Of a stretch of 23,650 bases of DNA, positions 1 through 22,835 are shown in pieces; within the stretch, counting starts at the first letter, position 1; every line of letters starts with the position of its first letter. The translations under genes and the position numbers were made by a program. The stretch is taken from positions 1-23,650 of the IMG/VR virus record IMGVR_UViG_3300030012_002187, one strand, 5' to 3'. The notes beneath the pieces were generated by a model. It made no database searches. It saw nothing but the letters and a program-made list of their open reading frames with translations, and was not told where the DNA came from. This DNA is from a virus.

Positions 1-348
1 GTTCCACAAACAAAAGAAGGTGAAACCATAACTGTTTTCCATGACTACGTACGTGAGATGGTCATGCGATACATGGTAAAACCAAAGGATATGCTGTTGT
101 CTACAGATGTACCACAAATGCCCTATGAGTTTCATCAACTTATTGTATACAAAGCATTGGAAGACATCTATCTCAAACTTGGTCAACAAGGTTTGGCTGC
201 GACCTATGAAAGAAAATACATGAAGGAAATCAACGGGTTGGCTAAACGATATGTAGACAAGATAGATCAGCGTGTAGTGCGTGGCCGGTTTCACATGGCA
301 TATGGTAGACCAACATACGATGGTACTACATTAAGGAGACTTTCATGA
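1..348 (+). CDS. Head-tail adaptor-like protein, 5' partial
   Basis: The reading frame is open from the first base of the window, so the gene starts upstream; 115 residues are visible. The segment with PYEFHQLIVYKALEDIYLK, followed by a Tyr- and Glu-rich helix with repeated basic residues, resembles the C-terminal helical part of phage neck/adaptor proteins (SU10-type adaptor), where a PEE(F/Y)H..(L/I)..(Y/W).AL pattern is common. Such proteins form the ring joining portal to tail nozzle. The next gene is nozzle-like and starts on the overlapping ATGA of this gene's stop, which fits translational coupling within a neck/tail block. The family call is from remembered pattern only; any small virion connector is an alternative. 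Confidence 0.6.
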   Translation, partial: VPQTKEGETITVFHDYVREMVMRYMVKPKDMLLSTDVPQMPYEFHQLIVYKALEDIYLKLGQQGLAATYERKYMKEINGLAKRYVDKIDQRVVRGRFHMAYGRPTYDGTTLRRLS

Positions 349-2525
349 AGCCACAACGGTTCAAACGCTATGTGCCATGTGGTGGTATCAACCAAGTGTT
401 AATACCAAACATGGGCGATGCAAACATTGTAAACAACTGTAGATACGTTTCAGAAGGCGGTTGGAAAGCCAATGTTGGTTTTGAATCTTGGTGGCATGCG
501 CCTGCATCTTGGACTGTCACAAGTACCATCGTAGCAAAATACTTTACAGACAAAGTTGATGCAGTCTACCAATGGAAGAGACAAGGAACCAATGACATTT
601 ACACGTTTATAGAGCAGTCGGGGCGATTGTACTACGCCATTGGTAACAAAGGACAGGGTGCAACCTATACGGGTGCCTTCTATGAGAATGACTTGGTAAC
701 GATTGACAGTGACCGGTACATACCTAAACTGGGCGATGTCGGTAGTCAGTTTGTTAACCTGGGGCAACATCTGTTGATTATCAACGGACGGGACCGTGCA
801 ATACTGTTTAGTGGTGATCAAGTTTATCGAGACTTTGGTTTTGTGTTACAAACGCCAAGTTGTGACCCTTTGGATGTAGCCACAGAATACCAGAACAATA
901 AGGTATTAAGTGGTGGTGCTGCTGTTGCTTACAACAAAGTGTCTCAATACGGTTTGGGAGATGTAACAGAAAATGTACAGTATACGTACAACTACAAAAT
1001 GACGATGATTTCTGACTTGGGTGCAGAATCTCCATTGAGTGCAACACAAAGTGTTTCATGGTCCATTCCAAACGCACAGAACAAACGATATGGTGTAGCA
1101 CTTGACTTGCCAATAGGGCAGGACGGTGTAGTGGCGAGACGTATATATCGAACCAAAGAGATAGCCACAAACGGTGAACTCTATTATTTTGTGTCGCAGA
1201 TAGATGAAAACTCAAGTAGGTTTTTTATAGATGCCATGCCAGACAGGTTTTTAGTGGACCAAGCACCATCTGTTACAGCCAGCACACCTATAACTACAGA
1301 TTGGAAGTTTGGTGAAGTATGGGACAACAGGTTGTGGTTAGCCGCAGGTAGTCGCATTATTTATTCTGATAGAGGTATCTTTGAACAGTTTGGAGCGTTG
1401 GCTTACTTTGACTTGGGCAATCAGACCGGTGGTGACATCACACAACTAGTAGCGTTTTACAACAATCTTATTGTATTTAGAGAATCAGCAATCAACATTA
1501 TAAGTTTTGATACAGACAGCTACAACATCAGCACTATCACTAACACACTTGGCACGGTGGCTAGCAAGGCTGTTGTAGTCATACCACAGTTGGGAGTTGT
1601 GTTTGTTAATGAACAAGGCGTGTGGATGCTATCAGGTGGGTTAAATGGTGGTGCATCTATCAACATGCAAAAGATAAGCAAGCCCATTGACAAACTTTTG
1701 CGTAGAGTCAATCGATCAATGATACACAAATCAATAGCAGCATACTCCTACAGAGAAAAAGAAGTATGGTTGCATTTACCAACAGATGACAGCACGACAC
1801 CAGACTTTGGATATGTCCTACATCTCACACCACAAACACCACTTTGGTCTATAAGAACGGACTTAGAAACTCCAACAAACAGTTATTGGTCGGCTATGTC
1901 TACGACCGTCAATGGTTATTTTTTGTTGGGCAACGACCCGAACTGGACTCCGGCATTGAATGCAGAAACAAAAAAGTTGGGACCACTCCAGGTTATGAGC
2001 GCTCGATCGCATTGGGGACAGACAGGTAAAGTAACTGCATTTGGTGACAACGTTACATTGCAAATCACAGATACAGTCCATAATGGTCATCAATGGGAAA
2101 GTGCTTGGTACAACTCAAACGAGAACAGTGTCAAGGTGCGATACTATAGTGTAGAACTACGCATTATTTCATATGGTGACAATGGGTTCGACTTCTTTTA
2201 TGGTATTGACTACTCGTACACAGAAAGCACCACATCCACCCAAAAGCAAGCAAAGAGTGAAACGGTGTACACTATCAAAGAAGATGCCGTGTTTGGTCCA
2301 GCGGATCTGTCTGTTACCAAGGTACCGTTTACAGTAAACTCCAGTAAGATTGCAGAAGGTCGATTAATCACACTGCGATACGATGTAAATACGGAACTGT
2401 GTGACCAGTTTAAGTTTGGTGTACGAACTACCAACTCACAACAGTGGCACCTACTGTCGTTTAACATACTGTCAGATTCAGTGGCCATACCAGCACTTAA
2501 CCAGTCTACAAAGGTGTCACGATGA
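345..2525 (+). CDS. Tail nozzle / tail-hub-like beta-rich structural protein (726 aa)
   Basis: This is a long, Cys-poor, aromatic-rich protein made mostly of predicted beta strands. Around residues 325-445 it has a propeller-like stretch: a DNRLWLAAGSRIIYSD motif, then hydrophobic strands ending in VVFVNEQGVWMLSGG. Such NRLW..G..R..YSD strands are typical of podovirus nozzle proteins (P22 gp10, T7 gp12 functional class), which form the distal tube below the adaptor. The start ATG overlaps the preceding stop (ATGA), and AAGGAG lies at 333-338. Its place directly after an adaptor-like gene and before fibre-like genes agrees with this role. The function is inferred from position and fold-like pattern; no enzymatic motif is seen. 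Confidence 0.6.
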   Translation: MKPQRFKRYVPCGGINQVLIPNMGDANIVNNCRYVSEGGWKANVGFESWWHAPASWTVTSTIVAKYFTDKVDAVYQWKRQGTNDIYTFIEQSGRLYYAIGNKGQGATYTGAFYENDLVTIDSDRYIPKLGDVGSQFVNLGQHLLIINGRDRAILFSGDQVYRDFGFVLQTPSCDPLDVATEYQNNKVLSGGAAVAYNKVSQYGLGDVTENVQYTYNYKMTMISDLGAESPLSATQSVSWSIPNAQNKRYGVALDLPIGQDGVVARRIYRTKEIATNGELYYFVSQIDENSSRFFIDAMPDRFLVDQAPSVTASTPITTDWKFGEVWDNRLWLAAGSRIIYSDRGIFEQFGALAYFDLGNQTGGDITQLVAFYNNLIVFRESAINIISFDTDSYNISTITNTLGTVASKAVVVIPQLGVVFVNEQGVWMLSGGLNGGASINMQKISKPIDKLLRRVNRSMIHKSIAAYSYREKEVWLHLPTDDSTTPDFGYVLHLTPQTPLWSIRTDLETPTNSYWSAMSTTVNGYFLLGNDPNWTPALNAETKKLGPLQVMSARSHWGQTGKVTAFGDNVTLQITDTVHNGHQWESAWYNSNENSVKVRYYSVELRIISYGDNGFDFFYGIDYSYTESTTSTQKQAKSETVYTIKEDAVFGPADLSVTKVPFTVNSSKIAEGRLITLRYDVNTELCDQFKFGVRTTNSQQWHLLSFNILSDSVAIPALNQSTKVSR

Positions 2526-17050: not shown

Positions 17051-17067
17051 CACCACCACCACTAACA

Positions 17068-17090
17068 GAAATGGGTGCGGAACCACCCAC
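17068..17090 (-). other. Leader hairpin before the last HTH gene
   Basis: GGGTG at 17073-17077 and CACCC at 17084-17088 form a five-base-pair arm around a six-base loop in the leader of the 98-aa HTH gene. It is weak and has no T-run, so it is more likely a leader structure than a terminator. Confidence 0.3.
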
Positions 17091-17102
17091 ACCCAAACCT
17101 AC

Positions 17103-17117
17103 CATGCACGGAGCATG
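17103..17117 (-). promoter_or_regulatory. Inverted repeat at predicted +1 of the internal promoter
   Basis: CATGC and GCATG are separated by five bases. On the - strand the repeat begins six bases after the -10 box at 17124, that is at the predicted start of transcription. It could be a 5'-terminal RNA stem-loop or an operator. The spacing is the same as at 21483 and 21769, but the sequence is unrelated. Confidence 0.55.
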
Positions 17118-17123
17118 TAAAAT

Positions 17124-17152
17124 ACTATAACTCATTTTTCTGACTCTATCAA
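17124..17152 (-). promoter_or_regulatory. Internal sigma70-type promoter for the last HTH gene
   Basis: On the - strand, TTGATA (17152-17147) and TATAGT (17129-17124) are separated by 17 bases; each matches the consensus at five of six positions. The -35 box lies in the last codons of the 71-aa HTH gene, and the start would be near 17117, giving a leader of about 65 bases for the 98-aa HTH gene. It would allow that regulator to be made without the rest of the operon. Confidence 0.6.
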
Positions 17153-18430: not shown

Positions 18431-18902
18431 GGTTCTCTCCAAGTGCGCCGTCCATCCAGTCCATCAAAGCACCAACCTCAGTGTTCTCGTGGTATTTCAT
18501 TTCAGAATCTAGATACAGGGTGACATCTACGTAGGCAATGTCATTGACATCGTTTGAGATATACAGGATGTGGTGGTGTCCACGTTGACAGTAGAACGGA
18601 TGCATCCACCCTCGTTCACCATTGAAGTTGGGTGGTGTGGTTTCAGGGCAGTGCAACCATCCAAGACGCTCCAATTCAGAACGGTACATATCCATTTGCA
18701 TAATCAGTTTTTGGTATGAGTCTAGGGATGGTGGTGGCAGTGGGTTAGCTGGTCGTGACAGGTACCACTCCTCAATCATATCGTTGATTGGGTGCAGTGC
18801 ATCAATAGCTACCAGTATGGTGTGTGCTTTCTGCAGGGTTGATTTGGTGGCGTTGTCTTTGACCTTGTCAATGACGTGTTGTAGTTGTTCTAGAAAGAAC
18901 AT
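18414..18902 (-). CDS. Unassigned early protein (162 aa)
   Basis: The ATG at 18902 has GGAG seven bases upstream and follows a leader that closely copies that of the first operon gene. Residues 1-60 are helical (FFLEQLQHVIDKVKDNATK). After a Pro-rich linker (SRPANPLPPPSLDSYQ) comes a His/Trp/Tyr-rich part with WLHCPETTPPNF, GWMHPFYCQRGHHHILYI and a strand YVDVTLYLDSE. The Cys and His spacing might bind metal, but I cannot fit a known finger. It ends in an acidic helix (ALMDWMDGALGENHADHD). Its place between the loader-like and SWIM genes suggests a DNA-metabolism accessory role. Family not recognised. Confidence 0.6.
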   Translation of the reverse strand: MFFLEQLQHVIDKVKDNATKSTLQKAHTILVAIDALHPINDMIEEWYLSRPANPLPPPSLDSYQKLIMQMDMYRSELERLGWLHCPETTPPNFNGERGWMHPFYCQRGHHHILYISNDVNDIAYVDVTLYLDSEMKYHENTEVGALMDWMDGALGENHADHD

Positions 18903-18930
18903 GGTGTACTCCAGTGTTGGGTGGTAGGTT
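18900..18930 (-). repeat. Leader repeat, second copy
   Basis: The 31 bases before and including this start codon match those at 21449-21479 at 26 of 31 positions without gaps: AACCTACCA, then CCAAC, TGGAG and ACCATG are shared. Here it begins inside the stop codon of the preceding gene. It acts as the ribosome-binding leader of the 162-aa gene. Confidence 0.7.
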
Positions 18931-20393: not shown

Positions 20394-20630
20394 TTACCTC
20401 CCCTGTTCCATGCTTATTGTGTTGACCATAATGTTGTATCCTTGACCGCTGACTCTATTTGGATATACGATTTTAGCCAGTCGCATTAGGTAACCTCGCT
20501 CCGGTACTTGAATACCGTCAACCCACGCTCTTAGAGTGTAGATGGATACACCACACAGTTCTGCAACCTCATTTGGTGTATGCTTTGAGTCTTTAATCGC
20601 TCTAGTTAGGAGTTCTGTAAATGGAATCAT
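20394..20630 (-). CDS. XRE-type HTH protein (78 aa)
   Basis: GGAGGTGAGCA stands directly before the ATG, and the start overlaps the upstream stop by four bases. Residues 19-40 form the helix-turn-helix (PNEVAELCGVSIYTLRAWVD), followed by GIQVPERGYLMRLAKIVYP. It shares GxQVP...YLMRL......YP with the 71-aa HTH protein at the other end of the operon, while the recognition helices differ (SIYTLRAWV and HRDTVAKWL). It is likely a Cro-like DNA-binding protein, placed directly upstream of the replication genes as lambda CII or Cro are. The target site is unknown; candidates are the palindromes in 21464-21813. Confidence 0.75.
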   Translation of the reverse strand: MIPFTELLTRAIKDSKHTPNEVAELCGVSIYTLRAWVDGIQVPERGYLMRLAKIVYPNRVSGQGYNIMVNTISMEQGR

Positions 20631-21052
20631 TGCTCACCTCCTTCAGGTGTACGCATGTGTCCATAGAGATAGTCCACTGCCAATACTAAATCGTAGCAGC
20701 CTATATTACGCTCCAGTCTACAGTGACGAATCACTTCATTGACAGCGTCTACCTGTTTGAGCATCCCTAGTTCATAGGCATGCTCCATCCCGGCATTGAC
20801 TTTGCCCAGTCTAGCCATGGCATTGACAATGATGGTGGTGGTGTCGTGAATGGCTTCAATCTCTGAGGGCAAGAATCGCTCCGGATTGGGAACGAGCTCT
20901 TTGGCACAACTGCAGATTGGGTGGTCATCCTGCAGCACTGACTCAGAAGATACAATGTATCGGTTGTTGATGATGGTGAGGTCTGTACCTTGTACTGGTA
21001 CTGCACTCATGATTTGAGTGACGTTGGGTGGTATGCGCATTAAACGTGGCAT
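20627..21052 (-). CDS. Unassigned early protein (141 aa)
   Basis: AGGAGCC precedes the ATG, and the stop overlaps the next start codon. The N-terminal third is beta-prone (QGTDLTIINNRYIVSSESV) and contains CSC (DDHPICSCAKEL). The rest is helical: PSEIEAIHDTTTIIVNAMARLGKVNAGMEHAYELGMLKQ, then a Cys-containing helix and CYDLVLAVDYLYGHM. The helical part looks like a small bundle that may bind a partner protein. There is no known catalytic motif, signal or membrane span. Position in the operon suggests a regulatory or replication accessory. Confidence 0.6.
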   Translation of the reverse strand: MPRLMRIPPNVTQIMSAVPVQGTDLTIINNRYIVSSESVLQDDHPICSCAKELVPNPERFLPSEIEAIHDTTTIIVNAMARLGKVNAGMEHAYELGMLKQVDAVNEVIRHCRLERNIGCYDLVLAVDYLYGHMRTPEGGEQ

Positions 21053-21061
21053 GGTAGGCTC

Positions 21062-21229
21062 CTATACCGTTTTGGTGATGATGTATTGGATCGAGCTGAC
21101 ACGGCAGTCGATGATTTTAATGTCCTTAATGTTTTGGCATAACGCTGACAGTGCTTCAAGGGTCTCGAGTGAATATGGCAACCAGCTAATGGTCCCGTCT
21201 TTCTCTGTTACAAGTACAATTTTAGTCAT
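21062..21229 (-). CDS. Small early protein, unassigned (55 aa)
   Basis: The gene starts at an ATG three bases after the preceding stop, with AGGAG inside the end of the preceding gene, and ends nine bases before the next start. The product opens with a strand (MTKIVLVTEKDGTISWLPYS), then a helix (LETLEALSALCQNI) and two more short strands (KDIKIIDCRVSSIQYIIT). The alternating strand-helix-strand pattern and strong Shine-Dalgarno support a real small protein. It could be an antihost or regulatory protein, but no family is recognised. Confidence 0.7.
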   Translation of the reverse strand: MTKIVLVTEKDGTISWLPYSLETLEALSALCQNIKDIKIIDCRVSSIQYIITKTV

Positions 21230-21232
21230 GGT

Positions 21233-21451
21233 TTACTCCTGTGGTAGGTTGATAAATGCTAGGTACTCTCCATACACTGCGCAGTATTGACACACCTCGA
21301 CAGTGTATGCAATACCCCAGTCTGTTAATACACAATCTAGTTCGTCAAGTTGAAGCTCTGAATGAATATAAATTGCGTTTGTCATTTCGGTATAGTAGGC
21401 TATGTTTTCTTCCATTAGCCATTGACCGATGCCTTGGATGTTGTATTCCAT
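21233..21451 (-). CDS. First gene of the leftward operon, unassigned (72 aa)
   Basis: I chose ATG at 21451 because GGAG lies six bases upstream; an in-frame ATG at 21463 has no Shine-Dalgarno and lies within the conserved leader. The product is acidic and rich in Tyr and Trp: QGIGQWLMEENIAYYTEM, then IYIHSELQLDELDCVLTDWG and VCQYCAVYGEYLAF. The C..C pair near the end (residues 56 and 59 region) may bind metal. As the promoter-proximal gene it should be made early. A role as an inhibitor of a host protein is only a possibility; no family is recognised. Confidence 0.65.
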   Translation of the reverse strand: MEYNIQGIGQWLMEENIAYYTEMTNAIYIHSELQLDELDCVLTDWGIAYTVEVCQYCAVYGEYLAFINLPQE

Positions 21452-21479
21452 GGTATGCTCCATAGTTGGTTGGTAGGTT
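21449..21479 (-). repeat. Leader repeat, first copy
   Basis: AACCTACCA, CCAAC, TGGAG and ACCATG of this 31-base leader recur at 18900-18930 (26 of 31 identical). A related AACCTACCAA with TATGGAG leads the rightward gene at 21814. The element combines an unstructured C/A-rich spacer with the ribosome-binding site. Confidence 0.7.
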
Positions 21480-21482
21480 TGT

Positions 21483-21499
21483 AGATAGTTTGTCTATCT
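21483..21499 (-). promoter_or_regulatory. Inverted repeat at predicted +1 of the leftward transcript
   Basis: Arms AGATAG and CTATCT are separated by five bases. On the - strand the repeat begins six bases after the -10 box. It could fold as a six-base-pair stem-loop at the 5' end of the leftward mRNA or be bound as an operator by one of the HTH proteins. A near-copy (AGATAC, GTATCT) sits at the same place in the rightward promoter. Confidence 0.7.
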
Positions 21500-21505
21500 G
21501 TATAC

Positions 21506-21534
21506 AGTATATAGAAATAAATCTACAGTGTCAA
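21506..21534 (-). promoter_or_regulatory. Leftward early promoter (sigma70 consensus)
   Basis: On the - strand, TTGACA (21534-21529) and TATACT (21511-21506) are separated by exactly 17 bases. The -35 is perfect and the -10 matches five of six. A T-rich tract resembling an UP element lies just upstream of the -35. The palindrome CTGTATACAG (21498-21507) overlaps the -10 box. Transcription should start near 21499 and drive the eleven-gene leftward operon. Confidence 0.85.
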
Positions 21535-21712
21535 ATAAAAAAGAAAAAAACTTTTCTATCTACCAACACCAACACTACCATGAATACCAAAGTCGCTCCA
21601 GTGATAACTCGCTCCAATGTAATACAATACACCGTGCACCCCGACTGCTTAACGCATTTGTAATTTTCGTCTCTACCTCAGAATTTGCTGAAAAATTAGC
21701 GATGTAACTAAA

Positions 21713-21725
21713 TGTAATCATTACA
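21713..21725. promoter_or_regulatory. Palindrome upstream of the rightward promoter
   Basis: TGTAATCATTACA is a perfect inverted repeat around a central base. It lies nine bases upstream of the weak -35 box of the rightward promoter, a usual activator position. The binding protein is unknown. Confidence 0.45.
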
Positions 21726-21733
21726 AAATAAAT

Positions 21734-21762
21734 GATACAATCTATAGATTTTGCACTATAAT
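21734..21762 (+). promoter_or_regulatory. Rightward early promoter
   Basis: A perfect TATAAT lies at 21757-21762. The position 17 bases upstream holds GATACA (21734-21739), a poor -35 match (three of six), so the promoter may need an activator. The 12-base palindrome AATCTATAGATT (21739-21750) lies in the spacer, where a bound protein could block polymerase. From the -10 box on, the sequence matches the leftward promoter at 35 of 42 positions. Confidence 0.7.
21739..21750. promoter_or_regulatory. 12-bp palindrome in the rightward promoter spacer
   Basis: AATCTATAGATT is perfectly self-complementary and sits between the -35 and -10 boxes. The leftward promoter spacer carries only the related GTAGATTT, not the full palindrome. 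It is a candidate operator specific for the rightward promoter. Confidence 0.45.
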
Positions 21763-21768
21763 ATATAC

Positions 21769-21785
21769 AGATACACAACGTATCT
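21769..21785 (+). promoter_or_regulatory. Inverted repeat at predicted +1 of the rightward transcript
   Basis: Arms AGATAC and GTATCT are separated by ACAAC. The repeat begins six bases after the -10 box. Compared with the leftward copy, the innermost pair changed from G-C to C-G on both arms, so pairing is kept. Confidence 0.7.
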
Positions 21786-21813
21786 ATTAACCTACCAATT
21801 ATGGAGTCCCATT

Positions 21814-22656
21814 ATGGATTTTAAAAAGTACATCATCGTCGAAAATATACCGGCGTTTAAACTGTCAATGACTGACAACAAATCAACCGTATCAGAGCCG
21901 TTACCATATGAGCATTATACAATTAGTAAAACAGGAAAGCGCCGCGCTATTCTGTCAAGTTCTGTCAAGTGGTCAAAAGTCGAAGGTGTTGAAAAATATG
22001 GGGTAACTGGTCTATACCTGCCACCGGCTACCACTGTATCAGGTATCAACACCTGTAAATTTGCGGGTAAGTGTGCAGAAGGTTGTATAGCATTCACTGG
22101 TCAATTGGGTATGTTTCACCAGACGACTATGGAATTGCGTATGTTGGCGTTGTATCACCACACAGAAAGATACCTCATTGATATGTTACGTGCCTTGTAT
22201 CTCCAATCATTCAAGGCGTCAATCGATGATAAACAATTGTATTGTCGTTTGAATGGAACATCAGACCTTCCATTTTACAAGGTGCTAGATATGGACGCCA
22301 TCGTTTCAGACTTCAATGGTCTTGCAGGTTTTTACGATTACACCAAATATCCATTCATAAAAAACCCTTGGCGATCATATCATCTCACATATAGTTATTC
22401 AGAGATAACCAAAAAAATACACCCGTCTTTTGATAGGGTCGCAATTGTTGTAACCAAAAAAGATAAAATCAAATTGCTTTCTGATTATCCTGGTGTATTC
22501 TGTGATGGTGATTTACATGACATCAGACCGTTAGACGGTAGCAAGTATGTTTTACTGCAAGGTAAACGGGTAACGGCTAAAGGTAAACAGTTACACGACG
22601 ATTTTATACAGTCATATGAATCTATAGTCTCTATGTTTGTTGGGGGTGCAGTATGA
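21814..22656 (+). CDS. Gp88-like phage protein with C-x5-C-x3-C motif (280 aa)
   Basis: The ATG at 21814 has GGAG seven bases upstream within the conserved leader. The protein follows the plan of the phage gene-product-88 type family: NTCKFAGKCAEGC (Cys 81, 87, 91), a Met/Leu-rich helix, CRLNGTSDLPF (144-154), GFYDYTKYP (172-180) and YHLTYSYSE (189-197). Family members share a Cys cluster early and the R.NGTSD and FYDYTK blocks later; their biochemical function is not known to me. The Cys cluster may hold metal, possibly iron-sulfur, but the spacing is not that of radical-SAM enzymes. It is the first and largest gene of the rightward operon, so it is probably expressed early. Confidence 0.7.
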   Translation: MDFKKYIIVENIPAFKLSMTDNKSTVSEPLPYEHYTISKTGKRRAILSSSVKWSKVEGVEKYGVTGLYLPPATTVSGINTCKFAGKCAEGCIAFTGQLGMFHQTTMELRMLALYHHTERYLIDMLRALYLQSFKASIDDKQLYCRLNGTSDLPFYKVLDMDAIVSDFNGLAGFYDYTKYPFIKNPWRSYHLTYSYSEITKKIHPSFDRVAIVVTKKDKIKLLSDYPGVFCDGDLHDIRPLDGSKYVLLQGKRVTAKGKQLHDDFIQSYESIVSMFVGGAV

Positions 22657-22835
22657 TTATTAGGATTGAAGTATATGAAGGTGCAGAGATAACAGTATCA
22701 GAGTTTGAAGTACTCCAAGACGATATACAAATATTGGACTACTATGTAGAATTATTGGAATATAGAGAATTGTTTTATGCTGTTTTCGTTAACGGGGTCA
22801 GAACAAAATATTATCTTGAAGGTGGTGAGGTATGA
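22653..22835 (+). CDS. Small acidic protein, unassigned (60 aa)
   Basis: The ATG overlaps the stop of the gp88-like gene by four bases, with GGGGG upstream. The product is acidic and aromatic-rich: strand MIIRIEVYEGAEITVSEFEV, helix DDIQILDYYVELLEY, then a strand pair LFYAVFVNGVRTKYYLEGG. The compact alpha/beta layout resembles small phage proteins that bind a host protein, but no family is recognised. It is translationally coupled on both sides, which supports expression. Confidence 0.65.
   Translation: MIIRIEVYEGAEITVSEFEVLQDDIQILDYYVELLEYRELFYAVFVNGVRTKYYLEGGEV

Follow-up and report, generated by a model that had tools for sequence, protein, structure and literature searches.

Predicted base-paired mRNA 5′ ends, a shared translation-start module and a candidate small RNA in a family of uncultivated phages

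The two divergent operons of this phage appear to be built on a single plan, in which a sigma-70-type promoter would be followed by a short hairpin formed from the first transcribed bases, an unstructured and nearly G-free leader carrying AACCUACCA, a GGAG and the start codon. The overall explanation that we propose from the sequence, at a probability of about 0.55, combines 5′ RNA hairpins, a shared translation-start module and a candidate small RNA. The window, which is the whole 23,650-nt stretch analysed, lies within a 34,174-base virus record, and its control region (21449-21816; Table 1) forms the boundary between a leftward block of small genes, encoding HTH proteins, a cytosine methylase and a SWIM zinc-finger protein, and a rightward block. 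Judging from this gene content, the two operons are presumably early ones. A DNA search with the control region gave no match among deposited phage records, a tblastn search with a tail protein gave none either, and no GP88 relatives were found in the bacterial and archaeal genomes scanned; the terminase retrieved distant records only, with best identities below 30% among the matches listed. The phages are a little-known uncultivated family. The end of the record (L006:9400-10524) resembles window positions 1-1200 in its ORF translations without being identical to them, as if two strains had been joined or the genome were circular.

Consistent with the first-pass annotation, the leftward sequence from the -10 box (21511-21470) matches the rightward one (21757-21798) at 35 of 42 positions, each side carries a 6-5-6 dyad located six bases 3′ of its -10 box, and both leaders run into AACCTACCAA and then GGAG. 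The resemblance is not due to chance, because no other ungapped alignment of the left cassette within the window, on either strand, exceeds 23 of 42. The left promoter is near consensus (TTGACA-17-TATACT, 11/12). For the first left gene, the most likely start codon is the ATG at 21451 and not position 21463 of the mechanical ORF list, since this choice makes GGAG (21461-21458) its ribosome site.

Table 1 Coordinates of the features described (window positions, except where the record is named)
Feature	Position	Strand	Evidence
Left promoter, TTGACA (21534-21529), 17-base spacer, TATACT (21511-21506)	21506..21534	-	conserved in relatives
Left 5′ stem-loop AGATAG-ACAAA-CTATCT, at expected +1	21483..21499	-	sequence, covariation
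Leader motif AACCTACCA, left	21471..21479	-	
Shine-Dalgarno site GGAG, first left gene	21458..21461	-	sequence, alignment
Right -10 box TATAAT, good; without clear -35	21757..21762	+	sequence, relatives
Right 5′ stem-loop AGATAC-ACAAC-GTATCT, at expected +1	21769..21785	+	sequence, covariation
Leader motif AACCTACCA, right	21789..21797	+	
Shine-Dalgarno site GGAG, GP88 gene	21803..21806	+	
First right gene, GP88 family (PF17338)	21814..22656	+	domain search
Internal AACCTACCA copy, before GGAG and gene starting 21229	21242..21250	-	
Internal AACCTACCA copy, before GGAG and probable start near 18902	18922..18930	-	
Terminase AACCTACCA copy	24357-24365 of record, outside window		
Candidate small RNA promoter, TTGATA-17-TATAGT	17124..17152	-	
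Candidate small RNA, roughly 60 nt	17057..17118	-	conservation, covariation, duplex prediction

Searches with GP88 yielded nine related control regions that retain their upstream part, L013 being nearly the same as L008; two further pattern hits, L017 and L018, were dropped as chance. Among the relatives, promoter and leader show good conservation on the left and rapid divergence on the right. Within one and the same relative, left and right agree at only 9-18 of the 42 positions from the -10 box, compared with 35 in the window, so that the mirror-image near-identity is a peculiarity of the window phage. The idea of a duplicated cassette serving both early operons, which had been put forward from the window, is unsupported as stated and was rejected after this comparison inside each relative: close left/right resemblance occurs in the window only, and its AACCTACCA-GGAG part is also present at internal genes and at the terminase. 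The first leftward gene (window 21233-21451; equivalents in L002-L005, L008 and L049) differs between phages, and its promoter and leader are constant, which suggests that small genes are exchanged behind a fixed leader.

Selection on the dyad, which had been postulated from the compensated inner pair of the two window copies, is supported by the related phages, where the arms stay complementary, where compensatory changes are seen in both the left and the right families, and where four promoters examined blind carry the stem as well. In the left family (nine sequences, seven distinct), 96% of the cells are paired, compared with 24-49% in slid controls, and three of the seven pairs have changed on both sides, pair 5 being found as A-U, G-U and G-C. 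The right family (window, L012, L003, L009 and L002) is 100% paired, with compensatory changes at two of six pairs and pair 2 represented by G-C, G-U and A-U. The L002 stem, AUGGAUAC-AAU-GUAUUCAU, is quite unlike that of the window, though the GP88 proteins of the two phages are 86% identical.

What the relatives share is the layout. An uninterrupted stem of at least 5 bp opens at the expected +1 to +4 in 21 of 23 promoters, +1 being deduced from the -10 box and some -10 boxes having been picked by eye. In the first set, 17 of 19 promoters display at least five uninterrupted pairs 0-3 bases after the expected +1 when G-U is allowed. The corresponding background is 22%, both over every position of these genomes and at other -10-like sites. 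If Watson-Crick pairs alone are counted, the figures are 9 of 19 and about 4%, the sequences inside the phage family not being independent of one another. This contiguous-stem test was used in place of a minimum-energy criterion, which is too lax since 26% of all 36-mers pass it. The exceptions, L008R and L013R, have no uninterrupted stem, and an interrupted one folds at the same place. A stem lies just upstream of 20 of 21 promoter-linked leaders versus 12 of 34 internal leaders. Four promoters outside the set on which the idea was formed all carry a Watson-Crick stem, an outcome of about 3 in a million at a 4% background, with -10 boxes picked by eye. Two belong to record G006, found via a truncated GP88 gene and the leader, and show AGATACA-CGG-TGTATCT and TACAGT-TCA-ACTGTA at +1; the others are on contigs L055 and L062, found via the candidate small RNA, whose leaders are preceded by ATACAG-ATTAA-CTGTAT and ATGCA-CAACAGA-TGCAT, respectively, both six bases after the -10 box. 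Short as they are, the stems of the family are also weak, at about -2 to -8 kcal/mol. In comparative terms, the layout is evidence that selection in this phage family favours paired mRNA 5′ ends at the principal divergent promoters.

The first-pass annotation had read the dyad either as an RNA 5′ stem-loop or as a two-fold protein site, and the comparison favours the former. The dyads are very probably RNA stems, because G-U pairs occur as intermediates, loops vary from 3 to 11 bases and the arms on the two sides of one phage are usually unlike. That they are instead two-fold DNA operators for a phage repressor, such as a small HTH protein switching both operons together, is improbable, even though they occupy +1 to +17, where a repressor would block, HTH genes are present, and perfect odd-centred palindromes (8-1-8), unnecessary for an RNA hairpin but perhaps needed at a DNA site, occur in L003L, L012L, L049L and L049R. 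A single protein would call for constant half-sites and spacing, and none were found among the dyads compared; the centre spacing is unfixed (loops of 3, 5, 6, 7 and 11) and G-U replaces Watson-Crick pairs in many dyads. A better shared two-fold DNA site is moreover present in the promoter spacers, where TAGA-N6-TCTA occupies 21512-21525 between the -35 and -10 boxes of the left promoter, its sole exact copy in the window; at the right promoter, a copy with a single mismatch lies at 21745-21758. The element is also found on the two sides of L002 and of L005 and on the left of L009, and a different one, GAC-NN-CTGTATA, is shared by the two sides in L004, L007 and L008. If one protein serves both promoters, the spacer element would, from its sequence, be a better site for it than the dyads. 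Further upstream, at about 50-83 bp from the left -35 box, are two TGGAGYG-type repeats (window 21594-21617, minus strand) placed 16 bp apart (18 in L012 and L049); repeats of this type are kept in 10 of 10 phages, as GGGAGCG in L005, and are probably a protein site or an origin element.

As an RNA structure, the stem has close parallels. The T7 gene 10 leader consists of a 5′ hairpin, then an unstructured leader and a strong ribosome site. Like this leader and those of ompA and papA, the phage leaders are predicted to place a hairpin at or very near the 5′ end, tolerate changes of its sequence and continue into an unstructured leader and a strong ribosome site. Unlike them, the predicted stem of the phage family is kept at both divergent promoters and is joined to a fixed motif that matches a candidate phage small RNA. 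Two features of 5′-terminal stabilising stem-loops, an opening near the inferred 5′ end (21 of 23) and conservation of pairing rather than of sequence, are both found in the phage set. 5′ stem-loops protect mRNAs (PMC7509114), and in C. necator expression was 1.5- to 3-fold higher, and the mRNA more stable, with the T7 gene 10 stem-loop (PMC6146998). By analogy, the hairpin most likely belongs with the known hairpins that protect or insulate mRNAs, and a stabilising or insulating role in these phages is rather probable: acting as RNA, it would keep the 5′ end paired and thereby slow 5′-end-dependent decay, as other 5′-terminal stem-loops do, and may also keep promoter-proximal sequence off the ribosome site, which the G-poor leader would hold open.

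Two other classes of phage stem-loop were considered. HK022 put and lambda nut are also RNA structures that follow soon after divergent early phage promoters (PMC9378689), and the position of the hairpins after two divergent promoters, as at putL and the nut sites, would suit nascent-RNA antitermination signals. This function is very unlikely for the present stems, and membership in the put/nut class was rejected: put comprises two stem-loops spanning about 70 nt and nut a sequence-conserved hairpin recognised by protein, whereas the phage has a single short stem whose sequence is conserved neither between sides nor between phages, and the linear motif 3′ of the stem also stands before internal genes, just ahead of the ribosome site. 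The promoter early stem loops (PeSLs) of T4-type phages are early promoters joined to a stem-loop, for which a part in gene shuffling is proposed (PMC4503421); as with PeSLs, small genes vary behind a constant leader in the window phage family. PeSLs are described as promoter-terminator composites, whereas the present stems lie 3′ of the -10 box and a search of 20500-22700 gave no terminator-like site, so that membership in this class was rejected as well.

Downstream of the stem, AACCTACCA is present in six copies in the 34-kb record, where 0.27 are expected, and five of the six lie just upstream of a start, namely those of the first gene on each divergent side, of two leftward internal genes and of the terminase. 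The relatives display the same pattern. Because of these copies, AACCTACCA-GGAG is a general translation-start module and not a signature of the promoter pair; the AACCUACCA-GGAG part is common to several phage genes. Some leaders (L004, L005 and L008) carry CCAACCAA repeats instead. A long hairpin followed by TTTTAACCTACCA is found upstream of the terminase gene at L006:650-730 (record 24300-24380) and also at L009:3800-3880, and might represent a terminator or else a 5′ end generated by processing.

The sixth copy is on the plus strand within a leftward block (17096-17104), and on the minus strand it forms the core of a conserved element that we propose to encode a small RNA. Six bases after TATAGT the predicted transcript forms a 5′ hairpin, CAUGC-UCCGU-GCAUG (17117-17103; loop UCCUU in most relatives), followed by a linker, GUAGGUU (17102-17096), and by a terminator-like 8-bp stem (17094-17073) with the loop GUGGUU and a tail that is U-rich in relatives and weaker in the window. 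Seventeen distinct versions were collected, with a mean column identity of 94% over a 46-base core, compared with 57% in the 60 bases upstream. Five of the eight pairs of the 8-bp helix show compensatory changes, with three U-G cells and no broken cell, values reached in 0 of 500 shuffles. The U-G pairs assign the RNA to the minus strand, since they would be A-C mismatches on the other; a gene leader on the plus strand was accordingly rejected, no conserved frame following it there. A search of Rfam at gathering score gave no match in the window or in four related loci, no convincing match to the candidate was found in deposited phages, and the RNA is apparently undescribed.

The candidate is complementary to the leaders at two places. 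One is UGGUAGGUU, whose end falls in the linker and whose reverse complement is exactly AACCUACCA; the other is UGCUCC, which lies partly in the hairpin loop and corresponds in the same way to GGAGCA. Their order fits a two-part contact. When 35 starts of the window genome are ordered by the predicted energy of their duplex with the 5′ portion of the RNA, the six bearing CCTACCA take ranks 1-5 and 8 (Mann-Whitney p about 1e-4), a ranking that is not independent of the 9-nt match through which the element was noticed. The six include the gene at 21052, since its start, GGAGCCUACCAUG, is also a match. In relatives, promoter leaders reach -18 to -30 kcal/mol (z -2.5 to -5.8) against the RNA of their own phage, energies that leave aside the cost of opening the small RNA's own hairpin. 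Motif and complement are both nearly invariant, so that they show no co-change except for one case in L049, where the loop has changed to UUCGU and pairing with GGAG is still possible via G-U. Complementarity to target ribosome sites, a trait of phage trans-acting base-pairing small RNAs, is therefore found here.

The repeated motif is best explained, on this sequence evidence, as a docking address for the candidate RNA. The specific proposal, that an RNA of about 60 nt reads the two-part address GGAG plus AACCUACC through its exposed loop (UCCUU) and its linker (GUAGGUU) in many of the phage's own leaders, is tentative and stands slightly below even odds. Such an RNA would probably bind the leaders and, because the pairing also covers the Shine-Dalgarno site, repress or time translation. 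It is doubtful that the role of AACCTACCA goes no further than that of a G-poor, unstructured enhancer of the ribosome site, or of a recombination boundary before exchangeable genes, with a complementarity that is a by-product, arising for example from an inverted copy of a leader. The CCAACCAA repeats that take the place of the motif in some leaders agree with such a reading, as does the varying of the first left gene behind the same leader, which is expected of exchange points. However, a given 9-nt antisense match in so short an element has a chance expectation of about 62 in 262144, the match is invariant in 17 of 17 versions, and the Shine-Dalgarno site is matched, in the correct order, by another segment; the element also has what looks like a promoter at its start and a terminator at its end, and its strand is assigned by covarying pairs.

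Among the known regulators in the open papers searched, the candidate RNA would, as deduced here from sequence, act most like c4 and sar (P1 and P22); c4 of P1/P7, sar of P22 and OOP of lambda are short RNAs that pair at or near the ribosome site of phage mRNAs (PMC12197685). Those RNAs act mainly on one target, whereas the candidate would read a two-part address in at least five leaders of its phage. If it acts as proposed, a single RNA would control many genes of its phage through one leader address, a task usually given to repressors or sigma factors, and could co-regulate both divergent operons, internal genes and the terminase, with the 5′ hairpins keeping the address exposed and the mRNA end protected; the recurrence of one leader motif before unrelated, exchangeable genes would then be explained. 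The gene starting at 21052 carries GGAGCCTACCATG (window 21050-21065, minus strand), which places the start codon itself inside the stretch complementary to the candidate small RNA.
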